A stretch of 55,376 nucleotides of DNA from Eubacteriales bacterium (lineage in GTDB: Bacteria; Bacillota; Clostridia; Lachnospirales; Lachnospiraceae): positions 1 through 55,376 of the forward strand of contig JAUNHB010000008.1 of assembly GCA_030524125.1 (NCBI GenBank). Direction: 5' to 3'. Positions 24,601-39,739 of the stretch are shown in pieces. The notes under the pieces are model-generated. The model searched no databases. It was not told the DNA's origin and was given only the letters and a program-made list of their open reading frames with translations. Within the stretch, counting starts at the first letter, position 1; each line of letters begins with the position of its first letter. A program made the translations under genes and the position numbers.

Positions 24601-25901
24601 GCGTCCGCGAGAAGAAAAAGGAGCCGCGCTGTATCGTTCCGTCCTCCTATGAGCGGGTGATCTTCACGGAGGAGATGCGAAAAACCTACACGATCCTCTG
24701 CCCGGATATGTCGCCCATCCATTTCCGCCTGCTGGAGCCCGCTTTCCGCTCCTGCGGCTACCACATCGACGTGCTCCCGAAGGCGGACCGCACGGCCGTG
24801 GATCTGGGCCTGAAATATGTGAACAACGACGCCTGCTACCCGTCCCTGATCGTCATCGGACAGATCATGGCAGCCGTGCTGTCGGGCAAATACGACCTTT
24901 CCAAGACCGCCATCCTGATCTCCCAGACCGGAGGCGGCTGCCGGGCCTCCAACTACATCGGCTTTATCCGCCGGGCGCTGGAGAAGGCAGGATACCCGGA
25001 TATTCCGGTCATCTCCATCAATCTGAGCGGCCTTGAGAAAAATCCGGGCTTCCGGTACACGCCGGAGATGCTGTTCAAGGGGCTGTACGCTCTGGTGTTC
25101 GGCGATCTGTTTATGAAGGTGCTCTACCGCACCCGCCCCTACGAGCTGGTGCCGGGCGAAGCCAACCGGGTGTACGAGGAGCTGAACAAGCGGTGCACAC
25201 AGTTTCTTTTGCAGAAGCGGCCGTCATGGGGCGGCTACAAGAGGCTGTGCTCCCAGATCGTGGAAGAATTTGACCGCATCCGCGTCACCGGCGAGCGCAA
25301 GCCCCGGGTCGGCGTGGTCGGCGAGATCCTCGTAAAATTCTCCCCCTCCGCCAACAACGGTCTGGTGGAGCTTCTGGAGAGCGAGGGCGCGGAGGCCGTC
25401 GTGCCGGATCTGATGGACTTTTTGCTCTACTGCTTTAAAAATACGGAATTTAAGGCCCGGTATCTGGGCAAGAAAAAGATGTCGGCCCTCATGGGCCGGG
25501 CGGGGATCCGGGCGCTGGAATTTTTCCGCTCCCCGGCCAACAGGGCGCTGAAGAAGAGCGTTCACTTCGCTCCCGCCTCGAACATCGACCACATGGCCGA
25601 CATGGCCTCCGAGATCGTGTCTCTCGGCAACCAGACCGGCGAGGGCTGGTTTTTGACAGCGGAGATGCTGGAGCTCATCGAGAACGGCACGCCCAACATC
25701 GTGTGCACCCAGCCCTTCGCCTGCCTGCCCAACCACATCGTGGGCAAAGGCGTCATCAAAGAACTCCGGCACCGCCATCCGGACTCCAACATCGTGGCCA
25801 TCGACTACGACCCGGGCGCCAGCGAGGTCAACCAGCTGAACCGGATCAAGCTGATGCTGAGCACGGCGTTTAAAAATCTGGATTTGCGGAAAGAGGCGTA
25901 A
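21651..25901 (+). CDS. Large 2-hydroxyacyl-CoA dehydratase activase-type fusion protein (BcrA/BadF ATPase, DUF2229)
   Basis: 1416-residue multidomain protein. Two ASKHA-type BcrA/BadF/HgdC ATPase domains occur in tandem: residues about 8-260 (LGIDIGSTTVKIAVL; CAGGTGSF and RCGVF cysteines) and about 320-580 (LGIDAGSTTTKIALV; CSSGCGSF and RCTVF cysteines). In HgdC these two Cys bind an inter-subunit 4Fe-4S cluster that delivers low-potential electrons. A CHGCTNNC motif (residues about 605-640) leads into a DUF2229 domain, and the C-terminal third resembles HgdB-type dehydratase subunits. Such fusions are common in Clostridia, substrate undefined. Monocistronic. The best ribosome site, GAGGTGAGG, is 20 bases upstream with a 5-bp hairpin between (21630-21643), so the start could be ATG 21651 or 21657. 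Confidence 0.9.
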   Translation: MSMHPCYRLGIDIGSTTVKIAVLDDDNRFLFSDYKRHFANIQETLAELLSEAVEELGPMDVYPVITGSGGLTLAQYLDVPFAQEVVAVSEALQTFAPKTDVAIELGGEDAKIIYFEGGNVEQRMNGICAGGTGSFIDQMASLLQTDATGLNEYAKNYKSLYSIAARCGVFAKTDIQPLINEGATKEDLAASIFQAVVNQTISGLACGKPIRGHVAFLGGPLHFLSELRETFIRTLKLDEEHTIIPKFSHLFAASGSALLSKREKSVSADEMIQRLQSKIQIAFEIQRLDPLFHDQKEFDDFSARHAQAKVVKKELADYEGDCFLGIDAGSTTTKIALVGEDGSLLYSFYHNNNGSTLHITLEALKNLFAHLPEKAHIVRSCSTGYGEALVKAALMLDEGEVETISHYYAAQFFDPQVDCILDIGGQDMKCIRIKNHTVDNVQLNEACSSGCGSFIETFAKSLNLSIQDFAQAALFAKNPIDLGTRCTVFMNSRVKQAQKEGAGVDDISAGLAYSVIKNALFKVIKVSDASSLGSHIVVQGGTFYNNAVLRSLEKIADCQVIRPDIAGIMGAFGAALIARERYEGQKTTMLTKEQMETLQYSTSMTKCHGCTNNCRLTVNKFSGGRRYISGNRCERGLGKEKNANPAPNLFAYKNERLFSYEPLPTADAHRGQVGIPRVLNLYENYPFWFTFFTKLGYQVVLSPASTHELYEQGIESIPSESECYPAKLAHGHVKWLLQHNIPFIFYPCVPYERSEFKDANNHYNCPIVTSYAENIKNNMEELSTGRYDFRNPFLSFESLEVLTKRLVEEFAGEKGMTAREITDAARAAWEELRQARLDVCRKGEETLKWMEEHHAHGIVLAGRPYHIDNEINHGIPELINGYGLAVLTEDSVSHLLEAERPLRVMDQWMYHSRLYAAADFVKTRDDLDLIQLNSFGCGLDAVTTDQVNEILTNSGKIYTCLKIDEVSNLGAARIRIRSLLSAIRVREKKKEPRCIVPSSYERVIFTEEMRKTYTILCPDMSPIHFRLLEPAFRSCGYHIDVLPKADRTAVDLGLKYVNNDACYPSLIVIGQIMAAVLSGKYDLSKTAILISQTGGGCRASNYIGFIRRALEKAGYPDIPVISINLSGLEKNPGFRYTPEMLFKGLYALVFGDLFMKVLYRTRPYELVPGEANRVYEELNKRCTQFLLQKRPSWGGYKRLCSQIVEEFDRIRVTGERKPRVGVVGEILVKFSPSANNGLVELLESEGAEAVVPDLMDFLLYCFKNTEFKARYLGKKKMSALMGRAGIRALEFFRSPANRALKKSVHFAPASNIDHMADMASEIVSLGNQTGEGWFLTAEMLELIENGTPNIVCTQPFACLPNHIVGKGVIKELRHRHPDSNIVAIDYDPGASEVNQLNRIKLMLSTAFKNLDLRKEA

Positions 25902-25904
25902 AAA

Positions 25905-25966
25905 CCCCTGCGCCCTCTGCGGACATACTGGAATGTTCGCGGAGGGCGCAGGGAGTTTTCTTTTTC
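25905..25966. terminator. Bidirectional terminator
   Basis: 15-bp GC-rich stem (arms 25906-25920 and 25939-25953, one imperfect pair) with T-rich tracts on both sides. It serves the activase gene on the plus strand and the LysR gene on the minus strand. Confidence 0.88.
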
Positions 25967-26927: not shown

Positions 26928-27608
26928 TTATTCTGTTTTTTCCACAAACATCAGAGCAAAGCTGATCAGCAGAAGCAGGCAGGAGCCCCAGATCACGCGG
27001 ACTCCGAAATGCAGCGACAGGTTGCCGCCGATCCCCGCGCCCAGGGCGAACAGGGCAATCACGCCGAAGTAATGCTTCACCTGCCGCAGCTGCTCCGGCT
27101 TTTTCTCCCTGCACCAGACGGACAAGGCCGCCATGCCGCTTCTCAGGTTGCCGATGCACATGGTGCTGGCATAGGAATAACCGCCCACCTTGCGGAACGC
27201 CTGTACCTGCATGGCGCAGGCAAAGGAGACCAGCGCCGTGGCAGCCATATTGAATGTTCCGGGCAGAAATCCCACAAGAAAAAGGATCAGGATCTCCAGC
27301 AGAAGGATCCCCTGTCTCCAGTGAAGCCTTTTCGCATACCGGTATCGTTCCGAAACGCGCTCTGCGACCAGCACTCCCGCAGCAAACGCCAGGATCGGGA
27401 TCAGATACCGAAGGGCGGTCCCCCACTGACCGGTCATGAAATTCTGACTCATGAGCACCACGTTTCCGGTCTGCGCATTAGAGAACACCTCTTCCCTTGT
27501 GTTGTAAGTATAAGCGTCCTGAAAGCCGCCTGACACTGCCAGAAACGCATTGTTGATAAACGCCTCCGACATCTGCTGCTGCCTTGTCAGACCTGAAAAA
27601 CGCTTCAT
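26928..27608 (-). CDS. YoaK/DUF1275 family membrane protein
   Basis: 226-residue DUF1275 (YoaK-type) membrane protein with about six helices. The family opening is visible (NNAFLAVSGGFQDAYTYNTR) together with SNAQTGNVVLMSQNF, a conserved Gly/Asn/Thr motif, and the later MCIGNLRSGMAAL repeat of it, indicating an internal duplication. Function of the family is unproven; transport has been suggested. Its ATGA overlaps the fumarase beta stop codon, so it is translationally coupled to fumarase. A dicarboxylate-linked role is a reasonable guess, not shown. Confidence 0.88.
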   Translation of the reverse strand: MKRFSGLTRQQQMSEAFINNAFLAVSGGFQDAYTYNTREEVFSNAQTGNVVLMSQNFMTGQWGTALRYLIPILAFAAGVLVAERVSERYRYAKRLHWRQGILLLEILILFLVGFLPGTFNMAATALVSFACAMQVQAFRKVGGYSYASTMCIGNLRSGMAALSVWCREKKPEQLRQVKHYFGVIALFALGAGIGGNLSLHFGVRVIWGSCLLLLISFALMFVEKTE

Positions 27609-28183
27609 TTCTCTTCGTTCCTTCCATGCGCTTTCAGATAAGCGGCGCGGCCTTCTTCGTAGAGATTCCGTCCTTCGCTGTCGATGATGACCACGAGGGG
27701 CATCTCCTCCACATAGAGCTTCCGGAGCGCCTCGGCTCCCAGATCTTCGTAGGCGATCAGCTCGCAGGTTTTGATACATTTGGCCAGCAGAGCCCCCGCG
27801 CCGCCGATGGCGCCGAAGTAGACGCCGCCGTATTGCTTCATGGCCTCCACCACCTCCGGGAGTCTCGCGCCTTTGCCGATCATGCCTCTGGCTCCCACGG
27901 ACATGAGCGTGGGCGCGTAAGCGTCCATACGTCCGCTGGTGGTGGGGCCCGCGCTTCCGATGACCTGACCGGGCTTCGCCGGGGTGGGCCCCACGTAATA
28001 GATCGTGGCGTCCGCCGGATCAAAGGGCAGCTCTTCTCCCCGCGCCAGCGCTTCGCACATGCGCTTGTGCCCCGCGTCTCTGGACGTGTAGATGGTTCCA
28101 GTCAACAGCACGCTGTCTCCCGCGTGCAGGGTGCGCGCCAGCTCTTCCGTGAGCGGCAGCTGGATCTTTTTTGGCATACTCAT
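27605..28183 (-). CDS. fumB: Class I fumarate hydratase, beta (C-terminal) subunit
   Basis: 192-residue small subunit of the two-subunit, oxygen-sensitive 4Fe-4S fumarase (or the closely related L(+)-tartrate dehydratase), interconverting malate and fumarate. Motifs: GDSVLLTGTIYTSRDAGHKRM-like opening, then YVGPTPAKPGQVIGSAGPTTSGRMD, a swivelling-domain signature. Starts one base after the alpha gene, with GGAGGTGA upstream. The fumarate reductase next door favours fumarase over tartrate dehydratase. Confidence 0.93.
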   Translation of the reverse strand: MSMPKKIQLPLTEELARTLHAGDSVLLTGTIYTSRDAGHKRMCEALARGEELPFDPADATIYYVGPTPAKPGQVIGSAGPTTSGRMDAYAPTLMSVGARGMIGKGARLPEVVEAMKQYGGVYFGAIGGAGALLAKCIKTCELIAYEDLGAEALRKLYVEEMPLVVIIDSEGRNLYEEGRAAYLKAHGRNEEK

Positions 28184-29026
28184 CTAAATCACCTCCGTTT
28201 TGTGGCGCGTCACATGGCAGTTGATGTTGACCGCGCAGGGCATTCCCGCAATGTGGGTGGGCATCGTCTCGATGTTCAGGCCGATGGCCGTAGTCCTGCC
28301 TCCGAAGCCCTGCGGCCCGATGCCAAGCCCGTTGATCCGCTCCAGCATTTCCCGCTCCAGATCCGCGTAGAACGGATCCGGGTGGGAGGAGTCCAGCGGC
28401 CGCATGAGCGCTTTTTTTGCCAGCAGCGCGCATTTGTCGAAAGTGCCTCCGATCCCTACGCCCACCACCATGGGCGGACATGGATTGGGGCCTGCGTTCT
28501 CCACCGTCTCGATGATAAAATCCTTGATCCCCTGAAGTCCCGCCGAAGGCTTGAACATGCGGATCGCGCTCATATTTTCGCTTCCGAAACCTTTTGGCCC
28601 CACGGTCACCCGGATCCGGTCGCCCGGCACGATCTCCGTGTAGAGCATGGCCGGAGTGTTGTCTCCGGTGTTGCCCCTGCGCACCGGATCGCCCACCACG
28701 GATTTCCGGAGATACCCTTTGTCGTAGCCTCTTCTCACGCCTTCGTCCACGGCAGCGGCCAGCTCTCCTCCGGTCAGATGGACGTCCTGTCCGATCTCCA
28801 GAAAGACGCAGGCCATGCCCGTGTCCTGACAGACCGGCACATTCTCCCGGTCCGCGATCCTGTAATTTTCGATGATGTTGTCCAGCACGCCCATGGCGAT
28901 CTGCCCGTCCTCACAGGCCCGGCAGCTCTCGATGGCGCACCTGACGTCCTCCGGCAGATGATTGTTCGCCTCGATGCAGAGCTTTTCAATCACATCCGTC
29001 AGACGGCTCACTTCGATTTCACGCAT
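28184..29026 (-). CDS. fumA: Class I fumarate hydratase, alpha (N-terminal) subunit
   Basis: 280-residue catalytic subunit of class I fumarase. It holds the cysteines for the 4Fe-4S cluster (VCQDTGMACVFLEIG near residue 62, ANPCPPMVVGVGIGG-like segment near residue 180, and the Cys in the INCHVTRH tail), plus the NTGDNTPAMLYTEIVPGD motif. Own promoter at 29071-29100; begins 101 bases after frdA, so it may be transcribed both alone and by read-through. Supplies fumarate for the FrdBA reductase encoded upstream. Confidence 0.94.
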   Translation of the reverse strand: MREIEVSRLTDVIEKLCIEANNHLPEDVRCAIESCRACEDGQIAMGVLDNIIENYRIADRENVPVCQDTGMACVFLEIGQDVHLTGGELAAAVDEGVRRGYDKGYLRKSVVGDPVRRGNTGDNTPAMLYTEIVPGDRIRVTVGPKGFGSENMSAIRMFKPSAGLQGIKDFIIETVENAGPNPCPPMVVGVGIGGTFDKCALLAKKALMRPLDSSHPDPFYADLEREMLERINGLGIGPQGFGGRTTAIGLNIETMPTHIAGMPCAVNINCHVTRHKTEVI

Positions 29027-29070
29027 AATGTTCCACCCCTTCGCTTCTGTCTGTTTTTCTTTGCATTCCT

Positions 29071-29100
29071 ATTCTATCACGCGCGGGCCGGTGCTGTAAA
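29071..29100 (-). promoter_or_regulatory. Internal promoter of fumAB
   Basis: Minus strand: TTTACA, 18 bases, TAGAAT, 45 bases before fumA. Between frdA and this promoter lie short GC palindromes (GCCCGCGCGGGC) that may slow transcription from upstream. Confidence 0.68.
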
Positions 29101-29127
29101 CCTGCACGCAGGCCCGCGCGGGCGTCT

Positions 29128-30729
29128 CTATCTTTCATGCCTTGCATATGCGGGAAGCAGAAGCGGCGATACGCCTCCTCCTTCCACGCCCGCCTGTTCC
29201 AGCGCTCTTGCATAATCTCTGACATGATCCGTATTCATGGATCCGATCCGGACGTCCTTTGCTCTTGCCGCTGCCGCCTTGCCCGCATTCCGTCCGAATA
29301 CGATAATGTCAAGCAACGAATTTCCCATCAGACGGTTCCTGCCGTGGATTCCTCCCACGGCCTCTCCTGCCACCAGAAGATTCGGGATCTCCTTTGTGAA
29401 TCCGTCGCCGCCGATCTCGAGACCGCCGTTCTGATAGTGAAGCGTCGGATAGACGAGAATCGGAAGCTTTCTCATATCGATGCCGTAGTTCAGATACATC
29501 CGGAGCATGGCGGGGATCCGCTTCTCGATGGTCCCCTCCCCGCCGATCCGCTCGATCATGGGCGTGTCCAGCCAGACGCCGCTTCCGATGGGAGTCGTCA
29601 CTCCTTTTCCCCTCTCGCTGCACTCGCGGATGATCGAAGCCGCCGACACGTCGCGGGTCTCCAACGGATGCATGAACGCTTCCCCTTCCCGGTTGACCAG
29701 CATCGCGCCGAGAGACCGCACCTTCTCCGTCACGAGCGCGCCGAAAATCTGGGACGGATAGGCTACCCCGGTGGGATGATACTGGATCGTGTCCTGATAG
29801 AGAAGCGGCGCGCCCGCCCGATACCCAAGGATCAGGCCGTCCGCCGTGGCTCCGTAGTGGTTGGACGTCGGGAAGCCCTGATAATGCATCCTGCCGGCGC
29901 CTCCGGTGGCGATGATCACGGTCTTCGCCCTCGCCACGAGGTAATCCCCCGTCTCCATATTCAGAAGCACGGCTCCCGCCGCCTGTCCTCTGTCGTCCTT
30001 GATGAGCTCCACCGCCGAGGTAAATTCCACGACCGGGATCTTCCGGTCCAGCACCTCGTCCCGCAGGTTTCTCATGATCTCGGCCCCGGAATAATCCTTG
30101 CAGGCATGCATCCTCTTTCTGGATGTGCCGCCTCCGTGGGTCGTGATCATATTTCCGTCCGGATCCTTGTCAAACATGACACCGAGACGGTTCAGCCACT
30201 GGATCGCGTCGGGCGCCTCCATGACCAGCCTTCGGAGAAGCTCCGGCCGCGCCGCAAAATGGCCGCCGCCGAACGCGTCCAGATAGTGCTGTACCGGCGA
30301 ATCGTTCTCCTTGTCCGCAGCCTGGATGCCGCCCTCCGCCATCATCGTGTTGGCGTCCCCGATCCGAAGCTTTGTGACGATCATCACGTCCGCCCCGGCT
30401 TCATGGGCCTCGATGGCCGCCGACGCGCCCGCGCCGCCTCCGCCGATGACCAGGACGTCCACATCATAGTCGATTTTATTAAGATCCACATCATCGGTGA
30501 GCAGGCGGCTGTTGGAATGGAGCAGCCGCACCAGCTCCTTCGGGGCCTTCTCCCCCTTGTTGGGGCCGATCCTGATCTCGTCAAACGCGTCCTCTCTGTA
30601 ATCCGGATGGAAAGCCTTCAGAAGCGCGTCCTTCTCTTCCGCCGTCATGCGGCGCGGCTCCATGCCCATACGCGCGTCTCTGGTCGCCTCCACCTTCTTC
30701 ACGGATTCCATCATTTCCGGTGTAAACAT
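29128..30729 (-). CDS. frdA: Soluble fumarate reductase flavoprotein subunit (FrdA/TfrA-like)
   Basis: 533-residue flavoprotein that would reduce fumarate to succinate. After an unusual N-terminal extension of about 85 residues comes the FAD-binding GGGGAGASAAIEAHEAG; other SdhA/FrdA marks are ATGGAGRMH, QYHPTG (active-site His/Thr), HYQNGGLEI and GGIHGRNRLMGNSLLD (catalytic Arg region). No secretion signal, so it acts in the cytosol. The cluster has no SdhC/D-type membrane anchor, hence no quinone link is expected; it resembles the soluble thiol:fumarate reductase TfrA in layout. Starts 11 bases after frdB, ribosome site AGGAGGG. Confidence 0.9.
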   Translation of the reverse strand: MFTPEMMESVKKVEATRDARMGMEPRRMTAEEKDALLKAFHPDYREDAFDEIRIGPNKGEKAPKELVRLLHSNSRLLTDDVDLNKIDYDVDVLVIGGGGAGASAAIEAHEAGADVMIVTKLRIGDANTMMAEGGIQAADKENDSPVQHYLDAFGGGHFAARPELLRRLVMEAPDAIQWLNRLGVMFDKDPDGNMITTHGGGTSRKRMHACKDYSGAEIMRNLRDEVLDRKIPVVEFTSAVELIKDDRGQAAGAVLLNMETGDYLVARAKTVIIATGGAGRMHYQGFPTSNHYGATADGLILGYRAGAPLLYQDTIQYHPTGVAYPSQIFGALVTEKVRSLGAMLVNREGEAFMHPLETRDVSAASIIRECSERGKGVTTPIGSGVWLDTPMIERIGGEGTIEKRIPAMLRMYLNYGIDMRKLPILVYPTLHYQNGGLEIGGDGFTKEIPNLLVAGEAVGGIHGRNRLMGNSLLDIIVFGRNAGKAAAARAKDVRIGSMNTDHVRDYARALEQAGVEGGGVSPLLLPAYARHER

Positions 30730-30740
30730 GGCTTTCCCTC

Positions 30741-31418
30741 CTATTTCTCAATGTCTCTTGTATTGTAAAGCTCCTGCATCTCGGTCAGCGGCTTCTGCAT
30801 GATCTGCTCGATCAGTTCATCATAATCGCCCTGATGGATCTCTTCCACCCGCCGGTTCAGATGCGCAGACTCCGGAGCGATGTATTTGCCGGTCAGCCTT
30901 CTGGCCAGCAGCCCGACCATCGGGTGGGAGATCTCCGCCGGACAGCGCACGGAGCAGCAGCCGCAGCTGACGCAGTCGAAGGATTCCTCCGCGCATTTCT
31001 CCAGCTCGCCTCTCTGGGCGTACGCGATATACTGCATGACATTCAGATCCATCGTACAGGCTTTCGTACAGGCGTTGCAGCCGATGCAGCTGTAAATCTC
31101 CGGATACAGCTCCATCATCACCTGCTGTCCCGGCTTCAGCCCGTTGATATCATAGAGACGCTTGTCCGTGGGGAAGAACGGAATGCTCGCCACATACATC
31201 CCTTCCTCCACCTGCGTCTGACAGGCCAGACAGGTCTTTAATTCATTCCTGCCCTTGATCCGGTAGATCGTGGCGCAGGCTCCGCAAAATCCGTGGCGGC
31301 AGCCGCAGCCTCTCTTGAGCGTATAACCGGCGTACTCCATGGCGGTCATAATGGTCAGATCGGCGGGCACGCTGTATTTTTTACCGTAAAAATATACGTT
31401 TACCATATGTTCCATCAT
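30741..31418 (-). CDS. frdB: Fumarate reductase iron-sulfur subunit (FrdB/TfrB N-terminal-like)
   Basis: 225-residue iron-sulfur protein. Residues 1-75 form a plant-type 2Fe-2S domain (CGCRHGFCGAC and CLAC); residues about 105-165 bind two 4Fe-4S clusters (CIGCNACTKAC and CVSCGCCSVRCP). It would carry electrons to the FAD of FrdA. Archaeal TfrB adds a C-terminal HdrB-like CCG domain; here that part is missing but a separate HdrB is encoded at the other end of the cluster. Two adjacent ATG codons (31418 and 31415) are possible starts after AAAGGA. Confidence 0.88.
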   Translation of the reverse strand: MMEHMVNVYFYGKKYSVPADLTIMTAMEYAGYTLKRGCGCRHGFCGACATIYRIKGRNELKTCLACQTQVEEGMYVASIPFFPTDKRLYDINGLKPGQQVMMELYPEIYSCIGCNACTKACTMDLNVMQYIAYAQRGELEKCAEESFDCVSCGCCSVRCPAEISHPMVGLLARRLTGKYIAPESAHLNRRVEEIHQGDYDELIEQIMQKPLTEMQELYNTRDIEK

Positions 31419-31485
31419 CGTTATCCTTTCCTTTCAACGCTGGGATCCGCCGCCTCACAGAAAGCACCCGGCGGCGGTCAGTCGG

Positions 31486-32340
31486 TCAGTATTCCGCCGG
31501 AAGCTCGTCCAGCTCGTCGCAGCGGAACACCGGGCCGTCCTTGCAGACATATTTGGTTCCGATATTGCATCGTCCGCATTTGCCGATGCCGCATTTCATC
31601 CGCAGCTCCAGCGTCGTGTAGACCTGCTCCCTTGAAAATCCCAGCTCCTCCAGTCCCGCAAGCACAAATTTGATCATGATCGGCGGACCGCAGACCAGCG
31701 CGGTTTTGTCCGTGTCAAATCCGATCTCTTTTAAGTAGGACGGCACGAAACCCACATGGCCGTCCCAGCCTTCCTGCTCCCGGTCAATGGTCAGATAGAC
31801 GTTCACATTCTCCGCCTTCATCCAGACCTCCCGGATCTCCTTTAGCTGCACCAGATCGTCCGCCGAGCGGGAACCGTACAGAATGTCCACCGTCCCGTAA
31901 TCCGACCGGTTGTCCAGCACATAATTGATGACCGACCGAAGCGGCGCAAGCCCGATGCCTCCCGCTATGAACAGAAGATTTTTTCCCTTCAGCCGGTCCT
32001 CCACCGGAAAGTGATTGCCGTAGGGGCCGCGGACCGCGATCTCATCGCCCACTTCAAGGCTGTGCAGGCAGTCCGTCAGCATTCCGCATTTCTTGATGCT
32101 GAATTCCTGATATTCCTTGTTGGTCGGCGAGGATGTGATGGAAAACATCCCCTCGCTGACGCCGGGCACGCACACCATGGCGCACTGACCCGGCATATGC
32201 TCAAAAAGCTTTCCGCCTCCGGGCGCGTTGACCCGGAACGTCTTCACATCCGGCGTCTCCTGTCGGATATCCGTGATGATCCCCACCTGCGGGATCAGAA
32301 GATCCGGCGTGTAGTCTTTGTGACAGGTACATTCGCTCAT
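31486..32340 (-). CDS. flxA: FAD/NAD(P)H-binding oxidoreductase, FlxA/AsrB-like
   Basis: 284-residue cytosolic flavoprotein of the ferredoxin-NADP reductase fold, like AsrB and the FlxA subunit. Residues about 15-105 bind FAD (GMFSITSSPTNKE); 110-230 bind NAD(P)H (LLFIAGGIGLAPLRSVI and LVCGPPIMIKFV); the C-terminus holds a 2Fe-2S motif CGIGKCGRCNIG...C like dihydroorotate dehydrogenase electron-transfer subunits. It is the expected entry point for NADH electrons into the Hdr complex. Overlaps flxB by ATGA. Anaerobic sulfite reductase B is the alternative, but no AsrC gene is present. Confidence 0.87.
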   Translation of the reverse strand: MSECTCHKDYTPDLLIPQVGIITDIRQETPDVKTFRVNAPGGGKLFEHMPGQCAMVCVPGVSEGMFSITSSPTNKEYQEFSIKKCGMLTDCLHSLEVGDEIAVRGPYGNHFPVEDRLKGKNLLFIAGGIGLAPLRSVINYVLDNRSDYGTVDILYGSRSADDLVQLKEIREVWMKAENVNVYLTIDREQEGWDGHVGFVPSYLKEIGFDTDKTALVCGPPIMIKFVLAGLEELGFSREQVYTTLELRMKCGIGKCGRCNIGTKYVCKDGPVFRCDELDELPAEY

Positions 32341-33380
32341 GCTTCCGCGCCTCCTTCCTTCTCAAACGCTTTGACGACCTTGACGATATTCAGCGCGGAC
32401 GGACATTTCTCCACGCAGCGCCCGCATCCGACGCACGAATACATCCCGTCGTTGTTGGCCGGGAAATAGACCAGCTTATGCATAAAGCGCTGGCGGAATC
32501 TCTGCATCTGGCTGGTCCGGTTGTTTCCGTGCGCCATCATCGTAAAATCCGAGTACATGCAGGAGTCCCAGCAGCGGAATCTTTTGACGCCGTTTCCGGT
32601 ATCATAATCCCTGATGTCATAGCACTGACAGGTGGGGCAGACGAACGTGCAGGTCCCGCAGGCCAGACACGGCCTGTAAAGCTCCTCCCACAAAGATGAG
32701 CCAAATCTCTCCTCCACCGCATTCCCGTCCCAGCCGTCCAGCGAAAGCTCCATATACGGGAGCTCCCCGACGATCCGGCGGGTTTTCTCTTTTTCTTCCT
32801 CCAGCAGACTTTGCTCCTGCCCCGAAGCCTCCTCCAGAAGTCCTCCGAGCATAACGGTCAGCTGTTCTCCCTTCTCCGTCTGCGCCTTCCAGAGCAGATC
32901 GTCTCCCGCAAACCATACGGCCACATCCGCCGACGGCTCCGTACAGTCCACGCCGAACACCTTGCAAAAGCAGCTCTCCTCCGGCTCCCGGCAGGCCAGC
33001 GAGACGACCGTCCCGTGCTCCCGTCTGGCCGCGTAGAAGGAATCCGCCGGCTCCGCCAAAAACACCTGATCCAGCACGCGCACGCCCTGTACGTCGCAGG
33101 GCTTCATGCCAAATACGACAAATCTCTGTTCCTTCAAAGCCTCCGGCTCCACGGTCAGCCTCCGCCCTTCCTTCACACAGGTATAGAGCGTCTCGCTCTG
33201 CGGGAAGAACACATCTTTCGGCGACTTGACGCTTTTGAGCGTATCGAGGTCCACCTCCGCATCCTCCGTCCAGATCCCATAATTCACCTGCCCGGCCGTG
33301 CGGACCGGAAGATAAAGCTCCTGTTCTGCGGCGATCGCGCGGAATAATGCCGACAGATTTTCTCTTGCGATCTTATACAT
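32337..33380 (-). CDS. flxB: 4Fe-4S dicluster protein, FlxB/AsrA-like
   Basis: 347-residue iron-sulfur protein of the AsrA/FlxB type. The N-terminal two thirds have family features (VVFGMKPCDVQGVRVLD and SCFCKVFG). Near the C-terminus two 4Fe-4S motifs occur: CLACGTCTFVCPTCQC and CVGCGRCVEKCPS. It probably relays electrons between FlxA and the Hdr core. Starts three bases after flxC and overlaps flxA. Confidence 0.85.
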   Translation of the reverse strand: MYKIARENLSALFRAIAAEQELYLPVRTAGQVNYGIWTEDAEVDLDTLKSVKSPKDVFFPQSETLYTCVKEGRRLTVEPEALKEQRFVVFGMKPCDVQGVRVLDQVFLAEPADSFYAARREHGTVVSLACREPEESCFCKVFGVDCTEPSADVAVWFAGDDLLWKAQTEKGEQLTVMLGGLLEEASGQEQSLLEEEKEKTRRIVGELPYMELSLDGWDGNAVEERFGSSLWEELYRPCLACGTCTFVCPTCQCYDIRDYDTGNGVKRFRCWDSCMYSDFTMMAHGNNRTSQMQRFRQRFMHKLVYFPANNDGMYSCVGCGRCVEKCPSALNIVKVVKAFEKEGGAEA

Positions 33381-33383
33381 CCA

Positions 33384-34358
33384 TTATCCCCTTTCTCCCA
33401 CAATCCCGGGTTCCACATCTTCGATTGTATAGCTGGTCAGCGGCCCTTTGGACTCCGCGTCCGCTCCGGCCTGATACTCCCCGTAGAAGACGTCGATATC
33501 CTTGATGAACTTCCGGTTGAACAGATGAAGCGGAATCCCCTGAGGACAGACTCTGCTGCATTCCCCGCAGTCCGTACAGCGCCCCGCCACATGAAACGCG
33601 CGGATGATATGAAACATTTTCTCCTCAAAAGAATCCGAATTGGCCTTCTGGGCGCTGTCAAACTTCGTGCTGTCAAATACGCATTTCCTGCAGCTGCAGG
33701 CCGGACAGACATTGCGGCACGCGTTGCAGCGGATACATTTGCTGAGCTCCTTCTGAAAGAACGCGAACCGCTCCTCCGGGCTCATGGCCTCGATCCTCTC
33801 CACCTCGGCGAACCGGTCCGCATCCTGCGTCTCTTTGGACGTCCCCAGCTGTTCGTCAAAGATCCTGTGCTCCTTGCCCTTGCACACATGGCAGCGGGAC
33901 AGCATGGCGTCCTCATAGGAAATGCTTTTCTGCCCGTAGATCGTGTCGATGGACAGCGTCTTTTCGTCCTCCTCGATCCCGGCTCCGCGGATCGTGCGGA
34001 TCCCTTTGATCCCGTGCGCCCGGATCTTCTCCATATCCAGCTTTCCGCGACATCCCACGCCGATGATGTACGCCTTGTCCCGGTCCACCCGGTGCTCCTT
34101 CAAAAGCTGATTGAAGCTGTAGGTATCGCAGGGCTTCAGACAGACCAGCGTCTTTCCGTCAAGCTTCGACGCCTCGATCATATATTTACTTAGATTGGCC
34201 CCGCAGAATCCGTCGTACACAAAATCCCGCAGGCTTTCCTGCGTCTCAAAATACGCAGGCTCCGGATTCCACGGCATATCTCCGGCTCTCCAGCCCAGCA
34301 CTCTGTCCACTGTCCCGTCCGCCAGAAGCGCCGCAGCCCTCTCTCTTAGTTCCTGCAT
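33384..34358 (-). CDS. flxC: 4Fe-4S/FrhB-type iron-sulfur protein, FlxC-like
   Basis: 324-residue iron-sulfur protein. N-terminal region resembles the coenzyme F420 hydrogenase/dehydrogenase beta family (LVCLKPCDTYSFNQLL, GVGCRGKLD); C-terminal half has two 4Fe-4S motifs, CIRCNACRNVCPACSC and CTDCGECSRVCPQG, plus further Cys (RCHVCKG). Start at ATG 34358 preceded by GGAGG, overlapping mvhD by 13 bases; the longer open frame lies inside mvhD and is dropped. The FlxC assignment rests on gene order and domain make-up. Confidence 0.82.
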   Translation of the reverse strand: MQELRERAAALLADGTVDRVLGWRAGDMPWNPEPAYFETQESLRDFVYDGFCGANLSKYMIEASKLDGKTLVCLKPCDTYSFNQLLKEHRVDRDKAYIIGVGCRGKLDMEKIRAHGIKGIRTIRGAGIEEDEKTLSIDTIYGQKSISYEDAMLSRCHVCKGKEHRIFDEQLGTSKETQDADRFAEVERIEAMSPEERFAFFQKELSKCIRCNACRNVCPACSCRKCVFDSTKFDSAQKANSDSFEEKMFHIIRAFHVAGRCTDCGECSRVCPQGIPLHLFNRKFIKDIDVFYGEYQAGADAESKGPLTSYTIEDVEPGIVGERG

Positions 34359-34789
34359 CTTAAGTCCTCCAATCTCACGTTTCTGCCCAGAGAACGAACC
34401 TTCTCCACAAATTCGTTCATGGTCTGGGAGAACTTTACGCCTTCCGCGGCGGACACCCACTCCACGCGGGTCCGTCCGTTCTCGACTCCCAGATAATCCA
34501 GCATCGAGAACAACAGCGTCATACGCCTTCTGGCATAATAGTTTCCGGTGGAGTAATGGCAGTCGCCCGGGTGGCACCCGCACAGGATCACGCCGTCCGC
34601 CCCCTTCTCAAATGCGCGGAGGATAAACATGGGATTGACCCGGCAGGAGCACGGCACACGGATGATCTTCACATCCGCCGGATAGGACAGTCTGCTGCTC
34701 CCGGCCAGATCCGCGCCCGCGTAGCTGCACCAGTTGCAGCAGAAGGCCACAATCTTTGGCCTGAATGTTTCGTTGGTTTCTATCGACAT
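34346..34789 (-). CDS. mvhD: MvhD/FlxD-type 2Fe-2S electron transfer protein
   Basis: 147-residue MvhD-family protein that docks an electron donor module to HdrA. Cysteines for the 2Fe-2S cluster are visible: CCNWCSYAG, VPCSCRVNP, LCGCHPGDCHY. Start at ATG 34789, which overlaps the 3' end of hdrA by ten bases and so suggests coupled synthesis. In characterised complexes MvhD or FlxD bridges the hydrogenase or NADH-oxidising part and HdrA; that role fits here. Confidence 0.9.
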   Translation of the reverse strand: MSIETNETFRPKIVAFCCNWCSYAGADLAGSSRLSYPADVKIIRVPCSCRVNPMFILRAFEKGADGVILCGCHPGDCHYSTGNYYARRRMTLLFSMLDYLGVENGRTRVEWVSAAEGVKFSQTMNEFVEKVRSLGRNVRLEDLRCRN

Positions 34790-36768
34790 ATTGCATCCAC
34801 CTCCGCGATCAGTTCTCTGTTGGAGAAGCCTTTCAGATCCATCGCTCCGGACGGGCAGGCCACCGTGCAGGCCCCGCAGCCCTGGCACAGCGCGCCGTTC
34901 ACCACCGCCAGACGGCGCTCCTCCCGGATTCCGTGGTCGTTGACCTGTCGTGTTTCATACGTGATAGCGCCGTAGGGACATACGTTGGCGCACATCGAAC
35001 AGCCGTTGCACAAAAGCTCGTCGGACTGAGCCGTACAGGGATTCGTCATCAGCCGGTCCCTGGCCAGCAGTCCGATGACCTTCACCGCCGCGGCCCCTGC
35101 CTGCGCCACCGTCTCCGGAATATCTTTCGGCCCCTGGCAGACGCCGGACAGGAAGATCCCCGCCGTGGGAGATTCCACCGGACGAAGTTTCGCGTGGGCT
35201 TCCGTCAGGAAATTGTTGGTATCAATGCTGGCGGTCAGCATCGTGGCGATCTTGCGCACGTCCGGATTCGGCTCGATGGCCGCCGCCAGCACCACCATGT
35301 CCGCCTCTTTCAGGATCCGGCGGTTGTCCAGCAGATCCACGCCCTGCACCAGCAGCTTCCCGTCGGGCTGCGGGATCACCTTTCCCACCTGCCCCTTGAT
35401 ATAGTTGACACCGTACTGCTCCACCGCCCTGCGGTAGAACTCGTCGAAATTCTTGCCCGGCGTCCTCACGTCGATGTAAAATACCGTCACATTCACATCC
35501 GGATATTTATCCCGGATCAGCATGGCGTGCTTGGCCGTGTACATGCAGCAGATCTTGGAGCAGTAGCTCTTTCCGCGGCTGTCGGCGCACCGGCTTCCCA
35601 CGCACTGGATAAAGACCATCTCCTTTGGCGCTTTCCCGTCGGACAGACGCTCCAGATGCCCTTTGGTCGGACCCGCCGCGTTCATGACGCGCTCCAGCTC
35701 CAGCGACGTGATCACGTCCGGGCTCTGGCTGTAGGCATACTCGTCATACTGATCCAGCCTGATCACATCAAATCCGGTAGCGACCACGATCGCCCCGTAT
35801 TTCTGCGTGACGATCTCATCCTGCTGATCGTAGTCGACGGCTCCCGCCTGACAGACTTTCGCACAGACGCCGCATTTCCCGGTCTTGAATTTGATGCAGT
35901 TCTCCCGGTCGATGACCGGCACGTTCGGGATCGCCTGCGCGAACGGCGTATAGATCGCGGTCCGGTTCCCAAGGCCCCGGTTGAACTCGCTGGGGATTTT
36001 CTTAGAAGGACATTTCTCCTGACAGACGCCGCAGCCGGTACATTTGTCCATGTTGACGCTCCGCGCCTTCCTGCGGATATCCACGGTGAAATCCCCCACA
36101 AAGCCCGTCACCTTCTCCACTTCGCTGTATGTATAGATCGTGATCTTCTCGTGGGCCGCCGCGTCCACCATCTTCGGCGTCAGGATGCAGGCCGAGCAGT
36201 CCAGCGTCGGGAACGTCTTGTCAAGCTGCGACATCCGCCCGCCGATGCTGGGCGTCTTCTCGACGATGTCCACCTCGTAGCCCGCGTCCGCAATGTCCAA
36301 TGCCGTCTGGATCCCGGCGATACCGCCGCCGATGACCAGCGCCCGCTTGGTCACCAGACTCTCGCCCGGCGTCAGCGGCGCGTTCAGATTCACCTTCGCG
36401 ATGGCCGCTCTCGCCAGGATCACAGCCTTCTTTGTGGCTTCCTCCATATCCTTGTGGATCCATGAGCAGTGCTCTCTGATGTTGGCGATCTCCACCATAT
36501 ACGGGTTGAGCCCCGCCTTCTTCGCCGCATTCCGGAACGTCGTCTCATGCATTCTGGGCGAGCAGGAACAGATCACAAGCCCGGTCAGAGCCTTCTCCCT
36601 GATGGCGGAGGCGATCTTCGACTGCCCCGCCTCCGAGCACATGTACGGATACTCCTCCGCGTGGACGACTCCCGGCTCGAAGAGCGCCATCTCCACGACT
36701 TTCTTCACGTCCACCGTTGCAGCAATATTGCTTCCGCAATGACAGACAAATACTCCGATCCTCTGCAT
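34780..36768 (-). CDS. hdrA: HdrA-like electron-bifurcating flavoprotein
   Basis: 662-residue HdrA, the FAD-bearing core of heterodisulfide-reductase-type complexes. N-terminal domain begins IGVFVCHCGSNI and includes CSCSPRMHE; the FAD Rossmann motif VIGGGIAGIQTALDIADAG is near residue 145; ferredoxin motifs CTGCGVCQEKCP and CGVCAKVC follow near 240-300; the C-terminal ferredoxin domain has CNGCSMCANVCP and CQGCGACTVACP (residues about 580-640), the likely exit to ferredoxin. In known complexes HdrA bifurcates electrons to a low-potential ferredoxin and a high-potential acceptor. Ribosome site GGAGGTGA; four bases after hdrC. Confidence 0.93.
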   Translation of the reverse strand: MQRIGVFVCHCGSNIAATVDVKKVVEMALFEPGVVHAEEYPYMCSEAGQSKIASAIREKALTGLVICSCSPRMHETTFRNAAKKAGLNPYMVEIANIREHCSWIHKDMEEATKKAVILARAAIAKVNLNAPLTPGESLVTKRALVIGGGIAGIQTALDIADAGYEVDIVEKTPSIGGRMSQLDKTFPTLDCSACILTPKMVDAAAHEKITIYTYSEVEKVTGFVGDFTVDIRRKARSVNMDKCTGCGVCQEKCPSKKIPSEFNRGLGNRTAIYTPFAQAIPNVPVIDRENCIKFKTGKCGVCAKVCQAGAVDYDQQDEIVTQKYGAIVVATGFDVIRLDQYDEYAYSQSPDVITSLELERVMNAAGPTKGHLERLSDGKAPKEMVFIQCVGSRCADSRGKSYCSKICCMYTAKHAMLIRDKYPDVNVTVFYIDVRTPGKNFDEFYRRAVEQYGVNYIKGQVGKVIPQPDGKLLVQGVDLLDNRRILKEADMVVLAAAIEPNPDVRKIATMLTASIDTNNFLTEAHAKLRPVESPTAGIFLSGVCQGPKDIPETVAQAGAAAVKVIGLLARDRLMTNPCTAQSDELLCNGCSMCANVCPYGAITYETRQVNDHGIREERRLAVVNGALCQGCGACTVACPSGAMDLKGFSNRELIAEVDAICR

Positions 36769-36772
36769 CGGC

Positions 36773-37162
36773 TCACCTCCTGTATCTTCTGAATGCGCTG
36801 ACCAGAAGCTGCTGCGGCAGCTCCGGATCCAAAAGCTCCGGAATGTCGTCCGCTTTCAGATAGTTCTGCCCGCGCTGCCGGATCACCAGCTGCCTCGCCG
36901 CGTCGATGAGCTTTCCGGGCTTTACATCCCTCGGACATCGCTCCACGCAGGCAAAGCACGAAAGACATTTCCAGAGCGACCGGGATTCCACGAGCGCCTC
37001 GATATTTTCATTCTGCACATATGAGACAAACTGATGGGGCTTGATGTCCATCTCCTCAAAAGCCGGACAGGTGGCCGAACATTTCCCGCATTTCATACAT
37101 CTCAATGGATTCACGCCGCTGATCTGCCGGATCTGTTCCGCCTGGTTCTTCTCCTTACTCAT
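36773..37162 (-). CDS. hdrC: HdrC-like 4Fe-4S protein
   Basis: 129-residue HdrC with two 4Fe-4S motifs, CMKCGKCSATCP and CLSCFACVERCP, that wire HdrA to HdrB. Length fits the family. Overlaps hdrB by four bases (ATGA) and precedes hdrA by four bases. Confidence 0.92.
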   Translation of the reverse strand: MSKEKNQAEQIRQISGVNPLRCMKCGKCSATCPAFEEMDIKPHQFVSYVQNENIEALVESRSLWKCLSCFACVERCPRDVKPGKLIDAARQLVIRQRGQNYLKADDIPELLDPELPQQLLVSAFRRYRR

Positions 37163-37962
37163 GCCGAAGCCACCTCCCCACTCTCTTTCACTCCCAGCGC
37201 CTCCGCCAGAAGCTCCGTAAAATAACAGACCGGGATACCGCCCGCCGCGCTTCGGTTCAGGTTATACATGCACAGAGGACAGGCCGTGATCAGAAGATCT
37301 GCGCCAAATCCTTCCGCGCTCTCCTTGATCTTTTCGCACATTCCCTTTGCCATCTCTTTTTCTTTCAGAGAAATATAACCACCGCAGCACTCGTTCCGGT
37401 ACGGATAGACGACCGGCTCCGCACCGATAGCCCGGATAAAATCCTCCATGATCTTCGGATTCTCCGGATCGTCAAACGCCATCACGCTGCCCGGCCGCAG
37501 CAGAAGACATCCGTAATACGCCCCGATCCGTTTTCCGGTCAGCGGCTTTACGACAAGCTCTCTTACCCTGTCAAATCCGACCCGGTCTCTTAATACCTCC
37601 AGATAGTGGAGCACGTTGGTCTCCCCTGCATAGGGCGTCTCAAGCTTCATGTAGTTGTTTGCTTTCGTGCGGATTTCCTCCTGCTGCCTCATGTCGTTGT
37701 TGACCCGCCTGATCACATGGTGACAGGCAGAGCAGAGCGTCACCAGCTCCTGCCCTCTCTCTTTCGCCGCGTTGAGCGCCCGGACCGAGGACAGCTTTGT
37801 GGCGATCTCATCGCTGCCCAGCGGATAGACTCCGCCGCAGCACTGCCATTCCGGAAGCTCTTCCAGTTCAAATCCAAGCGCCTTCGCAGACGCCCGGGCG
37901 CAGTCATCCAGCTCCCGGGCTTTGTTTTTCAGCGTACAGCCTGGATAGTAGCTGTATTTCAT
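37159..37962 (-). CDS. hdrB: HdrB-like CCG-domain protein
   Basis: 267-residue HdrB with two CCG cysteine-rich domains: Cys near residue 9 (YYPGC), CCGGVYPLG, CSAC; and YYGCLL, ECCGGY, CPLC. In methanogens these bind two noncubane 4Fe-4S clusters that reduce a disulfide; in this bacterium the high-potential substrate is more likely a protein or the fumarate reductase branch. Start at ATG 37962 with AAGGAG; the frame is open for 59 more codons through a terminator, but no ribosome site supports them. First gene of the long cluster. Confidence 0.92.
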   Translation of the reverse strand: MKYSYYPGCTLKNKARELDDCARASAKALGFELEELPEWQCCGGVYPLGSDEIATKLSSVRALNAAKERGQELVTLCSACHHVIRRVNNDMRQQEEIRTKANNYMKLETPYAGETNVLHYLEVLRDRVGFDRVRELVVKPLTGKRIGAYYGCLLLRPGSVMAFDDPENPKIMEDFIRAIGAEPVVYPYRNECCGGYISLKEKEMAKGMCEKIKESAEGFGADLLITACPLCMYNLNRSAAGGIPVCYFTELLAEALGVKESGEVASA

Positions 37963-37990: not shown

Positions 37991-38020
37991 ATTGTTATTT
38001 TTTTAACAATCAAGTGTAAA
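37991..38020 (-). promoter_or_regulatory. Candidate Rex operator and promoter before hdrB
   Basis: TTGTTATTTTTTTAACAA at 37992-38009 differs at one of 14 defined positions from the clostridial Rex pattern TTGTTAANNNNTTAACAA. It overlaps a possible promoter (minus strand TTTACA, 18 bases, AACAAT, weak -10) located just past terminator 2. Rex would block it when NADH is low. Pattern recognition only. Confidence 0.6.
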
Positions 38021-38545: not shown

Positions 38546-39739
38546 TTACTTTCCTCCCGAAAGCCGCCCCATCAGCACCCAGATCAGCACCGACGATACG
38601 GCGATGCAGCCGGCTCCCAGATAGAAGTAGCCCAGCATATTGCCTCCGGCCAGCGGGATGATGACGTAGGTGGGCACCACCACCGCGCCGAGAAGCTCCA
38701 GCGTCACGGCGAAGCCGCCCGCCATGCCGGCGTATTTCGGACCGATATCGCTGAACATGACCGGAAGAGCCATCATCGCCGCGATGATGCCGCTTCTTAA
38801 GCAGCCGTTCAGGAACGACGCCGCGTAGATCCCCGCCGTCGGAAGCTGCACGAGCAGTACCGTACAGACCGCCGCGATCAGCCCCATGACCAGCATCCAG
38901 AGTCCGGGCTTTTTCGAGCGGAACACGCAGGAGGGCACCGCCACCGATCCGATGATGGATCCGATCATCAGCACCGTACCGAAGGTTCCCGCCAGATTTT
39001 CCGAATATCCTTTGACGGACGTCAGGTAAGCCACCTGAAAATTGGAGATCACGGTGGCTCCGCCCAGCAGCATCAGAAGCGCCAGCCCCATCAGCCACAC
39101 GTTTCCGCTGCGGACGGACACCTTCAGCGCCTCTCTCACCGGAACCGTCTCTGCCGCGCTCTGGGACGCGCCTCCGAAGTCCTTCTCCCGGACCAGCACG
39201 AGCCAGAAAACGCTGAGGATGACCGCGGCCACCGCCGTCACCCAGAAGGCGGCCTCCAGACTCGGATAGAAAGCGGTCGTCCCGTAGGCCACCGCCATGG
39301 AGCCCGTGGAGCCTGCCATGAGGATTCCCACCACCTTGCCGATCTTTTCCGCCGGATAGAGAGACGACACGATCTTGGAAAGGTTGCCGTTCAGTACCGT
39401 GCAGCCCACGCCCGTCATCATCATGGCGGCGAACATCATGCCGTAGCTGCCGGCGAATACTCTCAGGACAAAGCCCAGCGTGGACACCGCATAGCAGACC
39501 ATGACCGTCTTTTTGATGCCGAACCGGTCCGCCAGCACGCCCAGCACGATACTGAGGAAGATGGCCGGCACCATGGGCGAGGTCATGATGCTGGAAAACT
39601 GCGTGTCGGTCAGACTGAATTTTTCATAGATCATGGACGGGACCGCCGCCAGCTGATACTGTCCGTAGTTTCCGAGAAACAATCCCACGAACACCAGCGC
39701 GGTCACGAGCAGACATTTTTTCCCTGTTTCTTTCGACAT
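38546..39739 (-). CDS. Major facilitator superfamily transporter
   Basis: 397-residue MFS permease with about twelve helices. The loop 2-3 signature is visible (GVLADRFGIKKT) and the N-half resembles nitrate/oxalate-type and other small-anion porters. Start ATG 39739 after AAGGGG. It lies downstream of the UroD-like methyltransferase on the same strand, separated by the tandem repeat at 39765-40142, so it may import that enzyme's methylated substrate. Substrate unproven. Confidence 0.88.
   Translation of the reverse strand: MSKETGKKCLLVTALVFVGLFLGNYGQYQLAAVPSMIYEKFSLTDTQFSSIMTSPMVPAIFLSIVLGVLADRFGIKKTVMVCYAVSTLGFVLRVFAGSYGMMFAAMMMTGVGCTVLNGNLSKIVSSLYPAEKIGKVVGILMAGSTGSMAVAYGTTAFYPSLEAAFWVTAVAAVILSVFWLVLVREKDFGGASQSAAETVPVREALKVSVRSGNVWLMGLALLMLLGGATVISNFQVAYLTSVKGYSENLAGTFGTVLMIGSIIGSVAVPSCVFRSKKPGLWMLVMGLIAAVCTVLLVQLPTAGIYAASFLNGCLRSGIIAAMMALPVMFSDIGPKYAGMAGGFAVTLELLGAVVVPTYVIIPLAGGNMLGYFYLGAGCIAVSSVLIWVLMGRLSGGK

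Follow-up and report, generated by a model that had tools for sequence, protein, structure and literature searches.

How a soluble fumarate reductase might be fed with electrons in a fermenter that seems to lack quinones is the question raised by a locus on contig JAUNHB010000008.1 (assembly GCA_030524125.1) of a Eubacteriales bacterium from the family Lachnospiraceae. Within the 55,376 nucleotides analyzed here (the whole stretch, hereafter the window), twelve genes form one operon on the minus strand, running from 37962 to 26928 in the order hdrB-hdrC-hdrA-mvhD-flxC-flxB-flxA-frdB-frdA-fumA-fumB-DUF1275, so that all seven FlxABCD-HdrABC subunits stand in one cluster with a fumarate reductase and a fumarase. 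We propose, with a probability of about two in three, that the product of the operon is a soluble NADH:fumarate/ferredoxin oxidoreductase that works by flavin-based electron bifurcation and independently of quinones. A bifurcating fumarate reductase had already been suggested in the original prediction for this DNA, and the suggestion draws support from the synteny found in relatives, the recurrence of the gene set in three gene orders, the lack of UbiA and DsrC in the operon-bearing genomes checked (0/6) and the nature of the neighboring genes.

In the proposed mechanism, NADH would be oxidized at FlxA and its electrons would pass via FlxB/FlxC and MvhD to the FAD of HdrA, where each pair would be split. 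One electron would travel via HdrC and HdrB to FrdB and on to the FrdA flavin, at which fumarate would be reduced to succinate, and the second would be raised through the ferredoxin domains of HdrA to ferredoxin, with the net reaction 2 NADH + fumarate + 2 Fd(ox) -> 2 NAD+ + succinate + 2 Fd(red). FumAB, joined in many relatives by an upstream malate dehydrogenase, would supply fumarate from malate, and Rnf, where present, would convert reduced ferredoxin into an ion gradient. We infer in particular the direct transfer from HdrB to FrdB, the assembly of a single whole complex and the reduction of ferredoxin.

With textbook potentials, the transfer from NADH to fumarate alone was computed at -68 kJ/mol and the bifurcating reaction at -33 to -49 kJ/mol for a ferredoxin at -500 to -420 mV, so that the coupling is feasible. 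The first value, strongly exergonic by itself, would equally suit a plain NADH:fumarate reductase in which Flx-Hdr merely conducts electrons and ferredoxin is not reduced. The theoretical scheme for Blautia luti in the consulted part of a 2026 paper names an NADH-dependent fumarate reductase, with no bifurcation at that step (PMC12773636). On the other side, residues 3-660 of HdrA align with the HdrA of a bifurcating complex (PDB 5odc_A, E=6e-203) and extra ferredoxin domains are present, and seven additional subunits would be costly for a simple transfer; we consider the plain reductase quite improbable.

Gene identities derive from scans with profile hidden Markov models (HMMs; Pfam and NCBIfam), by which all twelve genes claimed in the original prediction were recovered in place and on the minus strand. 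The Hdr part comprises hdrB (37159..37962), whose two CCG domains correspond to two non-cubane [4Fe-4S] sites (Pfam CCG twice; TIGR03288 E=6e-40, under the model cut-off), hdrC (36773..37162) with two [4Fe-4S] clusters (Fer4 dicluster; NCBIfam HdrC models under cut-off), and hdrA (34780..36768), the FAD-bearing bifurcation subunit with ferredoxin domains both inserted and at the C-terminus (5odc_A; HdrA2 model 784 bits, cut-off 1100), which carries Fer4 and FAD/NAD domains as in bifurcating HdrA. They are followed by mvhD/flxD (34346..34789), a [2Fe-2S] subunit (Pfam FlpD E=4e-55) that aligns to a solved Hdr complex (PDB 5odc_D, E=2e-49), and by flxC (33384..34358), an iron-sulfur protein related to FdhB of Fdh-Hdr complexes (phmmer 9t1s_M E=2e-22, 8rvu_E, 7bkb_E). 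Next come flxB (32337..33380), an AsrA/sulfhydrogenase-beta-like 4Fe-4S subunit (ShyB, HydB and AsrA models; 9nez_B E=7e-43), and flxA (31486..32340), with FAD/NAD(P)-binding domains and a C-terminal [2Fe-2S] cluster (Pfam FAD_binding_6, NAD_binding_1, DHODB_Fe-S_bind). The fumarate reductase genes are frdB (30741..31418), encoding 225 residues with one [2Fe-2S] and two [4Fe-4S] clusters and no CCG domain (Fer2_4; weak Fer4), and frdA (29128..30729), the flavoprotein (FAD_binding_2 E=2e-68; alignment to E. coli FrdA). Behind them lie fumA (28184..29026) and fumB (27605..28183), the alpha and beta subunits of a class I fumarase, both above cut-off (NF004885, 410.7 bits against 276; NF005310, 285 bits against 238), and a DUF1275 (YoaK-like) membrane protein gene (26928..27608; Pfam DUF1275 E=1.5e-57) that overlaps fumB by 4 bases.

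Many overlaps of 3-13 bases had been claimed between these genes; overlaps of 4-13 bases do exist, at just five of the 11 junctions (4, 10, 13, 4 and 4 bases). The other junctions measure 4 bases (hdrC/hdrA), 3 (flxC/flxB), 67 (flxA/frdB), 11 (frdB/frdA), 101 (frdA/fumA) and 0 (fumA/fumB), the largest gaps being frdA/fumA and flxA/frdB, and a purine-rich stretch resembling a ribosome-binding site precedes the start of all 12 genes as judged by eye. The claimed lack of a membrane anchor holds for the operon, whose genes alone were covered by this check: a hydropathy count predicted no span for any of the 11 enzyme genes and 4 for the DUF1275 gene.

Conserved hdrBCA-mvhD-flxCBA-frdBA synteny had been set beforehand as a check, and the order proved to be shared by relatives rather than specific to this strain. 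A search of 60 relatives found FrdB orthologs (66-79% identity) in five, and the nine-gene order is the same in all five, the frdA of one being cut by a contig end; none of 16 same-genus genomes holds an ortholog, which makes transfer or loss likely. When named genomes were scanned, at least 503 stretches with a FrdB relative (E up to 1e-3) were returned, and the best 80 of these (73-90% FrdB identity) were analyzed. Their hosts include Lachnospiraceae, Blautia, Dorea, Mediterraneibacter, metagenome-assembled genomes (MAGs) labeled Oscillospiraceae, and others. Up to contig limits the order holds throughout these 80 stretches. All nine core genes are present in 61 of them, and the other 19 are truncated by a contig end (18 upstream, 1 downstream); frdB has flxA immediately ahead of it in 79 and frdA behind it in 79, with contig ends accounting for both misses. 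A chance neighborhood was rejected on this adjacency. In a sample of the bacterium's own family, the FrdB family was found in 34 of 298 genomes and 31 of 280 genera (own included), and all 12 loci fetched from it show flxB-flxA-frdB-frdA (two of these already counted). One MAG labeled Treponema (L112) has this nine-gene operon as well (FrdB identity 74%), for which transfer, mis-binning or mislabeling are possible explanations. Cultured carriers among the fetched set include Blautia luti, Blautia schinkii and Clostridium asparagiforme, and B. luti strain MSK.16.34 has the full operon.

The surroundings of the operon bear on its direction. Bifurcating enzymes are reversible in principle, and the complex could run backwards, oxidizing succinate with NAD+ driven by reduced ferredoxin (confurcation); sucCD-like genes lie beside some distant frdBA loci, as recognized from N-terminal residues only. 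Around the operon in gut relatives, in contrast, malate dehydrogenase, fumarase and an exporter-like gene make up a succinate-forming layout, and B. luti yields succinate as a product, which renders this reverse course highly improbable. Where the sequence extends more than 1.5 kb past frdA, fumB lies downstream in 61 of 75 loci; where it reaches more than 1.1 kb ahead of hdrB, a malate-dehydrogenase-like gene stands directly before hdrB in 39 of 64. This dehydrogenase scores as lactate dehydrogenase (HMM, two tested); an arginine at its specificity position, which we take as the basis for the malate dehydrogenase reading, is present in 49 of 49 homologs found across 85 loci. An AspT/YidE-type transporter gene follows downstream on the same strand in 17 loci.

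The original prediction had described every cofactor motif as intact, which the alignments bear out for the cysteines of HdrB, HdrC, FrdB and FlxA and for the substrate residues of FrdA. HdrC keeps eight cysteines in 89/89 Frd-linked sequences, FlxA its cysteines 250, 255, 258 and 266 in 80/80, and FrdB twelve in 126/126. In HdrB, ten cysteines that complete both CCG sets, and with them both non-cubane clusters, are retained in 88/88 Frd-linked sequences, and residues 1-259 align to PDB HdrB chains of solved Hdr complexes, which include disulfide-reducing HdrB. Because HdrB keeps complete disulfide-type sites, the main rival to direct transfer is a thiol step, in which Flx-HdrABC would bifurcate to ferredoxin and, as has been proposed for Flx-Hdr of Desulfovibrio, to a disulfide (a small molecule or a protein) at HdrB, and FrdBA would be fed by the resulting dithiol in a Tfr-like manner, without contact between Hdr and Frd. 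In the consulted part of PMC7282089, Flx-Hdr is said to pass NADH electrons to ferredoxin and thiols. DsrC, considered as the HdrB partner, was rejected, being missing from all six operon-bearing genomes (0/6; the control found it in E. coli only, 1/14). FrdB, moreover, is devoid of the CCG domain, the seat of thiol oxidation in Tfr, and HdrB adjoins FrdBA at loci where HdrA was not found nearby (L151, L165-L167). With these points on both sides, we regard the two-step thiol route as rather unlikely.

FrdBA differs from TfrAB, which the original prediction had named as a soluble fumarate reductase, both proteins scoring under the NCBI equivalog cut-offs and FrdB having no fused HdrB domain. 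TfrA is the best NCBIfam match of FrdA (328.4 bits, cut-off 718), and FrdB reaches 31.0 bits against the TfrB model (cut-off 385). The TfrB model covers FrdB by its front part and HdrB by its end, which indicates that both partners exist fused in Tfr. The SdhE model matches HdrB (E=9e-39); SdhE is a fumarate reductase subunit. In the TfrB and SdhE model matches, the proposed path from HdrB to FrdB has a precedent.

FrdA is extended at its N-terminus by about 88 residues, confidently folded in the AlphaFold2 model (mean predicted local distance difference test score, pLDDT, of 86), whose best PDB match is E. coli FrdA (1kf6_A, template modeling (TM) score 0.69), and a Pfam search found no PF02910 C-terminal domain in it. 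In the alignment to E. coli FrdA, Asn127 occupies the position of His44 and so replaces the covalent-FAD histidine, hence the FAD of FrdA is probably bound non-covalently. L-aspartate oxidase was rejected as an identity, the NadB models staying under cut-off (best 258 bits against 639) and the NadB-specific glutamate being judged absent by eye. Many gut-bacterial Frd-like flavoproteins use other enoates, and FrdA could act on one of these, such as an aryl acrylate, instead of fumarate; the dicarboxylate site speaks against this, since H318, E335, R338, R359, H431 and R466 align with the E. coli substrate site and are invariant in 39/39 sequences, as do the downstream fumarase in the 61 of 75 testable loci and the fumarate reductase activity of B. 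luti extract reported in the part of PMC12773636 consulted. A substrate other than fumarate appears to us only barely conceivable.

Six operon-bearing genomes were checked for host gene content, four at least 90% complete, our own 80% and one 77%. Menaquinone synthesis requires a UbiA-type enzyme; UbiA prenyltransferase was found in 0/6 (control 14/14), so there is probably no menaquinone in these bacteria. RnfC scored above cut-off in 4/6, and the own genome has two such genes (G000:C94 and G000:C19). In 5/6 genomes, the FrdA of the locus is the sole protein matching the entire FAD_binding_2 profile, and in our own, 80% complete, the CCG domain was found only in the operon HdrB. Absence from one draft genome is weak evidence; six jointly provide better.

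A survey of an even sample of 398 genomes from the phylum placed the fumarate reductase in a wider frame. The FrdB family (limit E 1e-30) was found in 41 of them (own included), with no match between E=9e-78 and 1e-30. For several of the non-Flx contexts one member each was run through Pfam, the pyruvate carboxylase and HdrCB contexts excepted, and the other members were assigned by tblastn with representative proteins. Among the 40 loci other than our own, frdBA occurs in the Flx-Hdr context in five (in front in four, behind hdrCBA and Flx in one), with another HdrABC-MvhD set and a large HdrA-like protein in 12 (two cut by contig ends), and with HdrCB only in five (one on a 3.8-kb contig), an HdrB or HdrA-MvhD set hence adjoining frdBA in 22/40. 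It follows fumAB in eight loci, with malic enzyme between in seven and no malic enzyme match in the eighth (L149), and a gene type of 1144 residues resembling pyruvate carboxylase in three. FMN/iron-sulfur or NapC-type cytochrome genes accompany it in three loci (L153, L178, L184) and a cytochrome b561/iron-sulfur gene in three more, and one locus (L168) has no clear partner. FrdBA therefore looks like a plug-in catalytic unit for exchangeable electron modules. The broader view to which we give somewhat better than even odds is that FrdBA forms a distinct soluble family on swappable donors (Flx-Hdr, HdrBC alone, HdrABC with a giant protein, cytochrome b/c), performing direct, thiol-free bifurcation with Flx-Hdr in gut Clostridia and giving ferredoxin and, with Rnf, extra ATP in quinone-free fermenters such as Blautia luti. 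The HdrA-like giants, encoded between hdrA and mvhD in L164, L170 and similar loci, measure 1092 and 1489 residues in the two cases measured, that of L170 having extra FAD and ferredoxin domains (Pfam), and a 472-residue protein without Pfam match is encoded ahead of frdB in L164- and L170-type loci; the giant set is possibly another donor module for FrdBA.

Flx-Hdr and FrdBA genes are combined in three different orders, which lie on separate branches, and Flx-Hdr-linked FrdBA falls into three clades in a tree with low support at several nodes. FrdBA-linked Flx likewise forms three lineages among 48 loci treed (24 linked, 24 unlinked from the best 30). Near the gut lineage (L193, and more loosely L199 and L207) and the second lineage (L215) stand unlinked Flx loci whose genomes hold frdBA elsewhere, as do the genomes of L196, L197 and L208. 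Of the linked lineages, the third (L192) stands nearest to a set of 17 loci, with frdBA in the genomes of L195 and L198 only. Equal-scoring FlxC copies about 7.8-8.0 kb apart in three genomes (G141:C7, G282:C13, G257:C1) suggest tandem duplicated Flx-Hdr clusters.

The sequences show gene content, gene order, conserved cofactor and substrate residues, association across lineages and the lack of UbiA in six genomes. Several observations weigh against the bifurcation reading. In 18 of the 40 phylum loci, frdBA has no adjoining HdrB or HdrA-MvhD set, one of them (L154) showing an hdrA-like piece some kilobases upstream. The neighbors of L192 come mostly from genomes free of frdBA, which implies that Flx-Hdr has other jobs too, and several tree nodes are poorly supported. 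Full-length FlxC, whose co-occurrence with FrdB counts in favor of the reading, was among the matches listed in 34 of 41 FrdB genomes versus 38 of 357 others, figures that are raw genome counts ignoring kinship and obtained with a FlxC profile built from Frd-linked sequences; the remaining seven FrdB genomes showed no full-length FlxC among the matches listed, three of them being of the cytochrome b561 type. FrdB is only remotely similar to classical FrdB proteins (E=1e-7 with the TfrB model, E=3e-5 with dhsB), and a fold search starting from its model revealed nothing SdhB-like among the 50 matches listed, which are weak (query-normalized TM score at most 0.29) and mostly complex I and bifurcating-enzyme ferredoxin domains. 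A gap of 67 bases separates flxA from frdB, the complete disulfide-type sites of HdrB may be needless for a mere relay, and full-length RnfC was not found in two of the six operon genomes (96% and 77% complete).

The idea of a bifurcating fumarate reductase is not new, having been published for Pseudoclostridium thermosuccinogenes and, in a version with tfrAB, for Gammaproteobacteria. According to the part of PMC7282089 consulted, the "succinate operon" of P. thermosuccinogenes contains fumarase, Flx-Hdr, two fumarate reductase genes and a hypothetical gene that may encode a succinate transporter, and was about fourfold up under CO2 limitation, not significantly for every subunit; the paper cites a 2019 preprint (Koendjbiharie & van Kranenburg) that proposes bifurcation. 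As here, fumarase, Flx-Hdr and Frd form one operon for which the same coupling of fumarate and ferredoxin is proposed, with the difference that locus tags place the fumarase at the opposite end, in a comparison based on the published description. In Gammaproteobacteria, reductive tricarboxylic acid (rTCA) clusters have flxABCD-hdrABC interspersed with tfrAB and korABCD, and a complex of Flx-Hdr, TfrAB and OGOR was proposed (PMC6315080, consulted in part); Flx-Hdr is combined with a fumarate reductase as in our operon, from which these clusters differ by the rTCA setting, OGOR and the annotated TfrAB. Methanogen TfrAB shares a soluble FrdA/FrdB pair and an HdrB-type partner, the latter fused behind the FrdB domain, whereas HdrB is a separate protein here and the TfrAB models score under cut-off. 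The 8-methylmenaquinol:fumarate reductase SdhABE, whose SdhE model matches our HdrB, has a quinol donor, unlike what 0/6 for UbiA suggests here. Quinol:fumarate reductase FrdABC(D) has the fumarate-site His/Arg residues in common with FrdA, but its membrane anchor, quinone synthesis (UbiA), covalent-FAD histidine and PF02910 domain were not found in this operon or, for UbiA, in the six genomes checked. The FlxABCD-HdrABC NADH dehydrogenase/heterodisulfide reductase, reportedly described by Ramos et al. in 2015, has the same seven subunits, which are linked to a fumarate reductase here, with DsrC absent from 6/6 genomes. For Hydrogenobacter thermophilus, Miura et al. (2008) reportedly described a fumarate reductase of five subunits that is soluble and NADH-dependent, as proposed here, but is encoded by scattered genes and is not known to have been described as bifurcating. 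In the literature searched, which left most subscription papers outside, no report of a purified bifurcating fumarate reductase or of fumarate-dependent ferredoxin reduction was found.

What this work adds is the spread of the system in gut Clostridia, the swapping of modules and the operon in Blautia luti. For B. luti, PMC12773636 gives measured activities of fumarate reductase (with methyl viologen) and of NADH-malate dehydrogenase, strong transcription of frdAB and formation of succinate, and its main text, searched for these words, contains neither "hdr" nor "flx". This physiology counts in favor of bifurcation, though the strain of that paper and MSK.16.34 may differ. Succinate ranks among the major metabolites of the gut; should the proposal be true, bacteria seemingly without quinones would regain energy from fumarate by bifurcation, published energy balances would change, and there would be a bifurcating enzyme with fumarate as the high-potential acceptor. 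Cultured carriers such as B. luti make bifurcation directly testable.

A putative operon promoter (TTTACA, 18 bases, AACAAT; 9 of 12, consensus match only) lies at 37991..38020 (-), with terminator-like stems, again consensus matches only, between it and the upstream MFS gene. A second promoter-like site with an extended -10 (10 of 12) at 29071-29100 (-), inside the 101-base gap ahead of fumA, means that fumAB may have separate transcription too. The terminal DUF1275 protein is a possible transporter; a related gene lies downstream in 7 of 85 clustered loci. Upstream of the operon are the MFS transporter gene (38546-39739, -) and a gene for a corrinoid-methyltransferase-like URO-D/MtaA protein (40150-41136, -); a search of 85 related loci with flanks of up to 10 kb gave no match to either. 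A foreign insert was rejected on composition, the operon having a GC content of 58.8% and each flank 57.8%. The contig also encodes an AdhE-type fusion of aldehyde and iron alcohol dehydrogenase (window 10502-13120, -) and, at 21651-25901 (+), a CoA-enzyme activase of 1416 residues with two BcrAD_BadFG domains and DUF2229, after which a terminator-like stem-loop of 20 pairs lies at 25906-25953.

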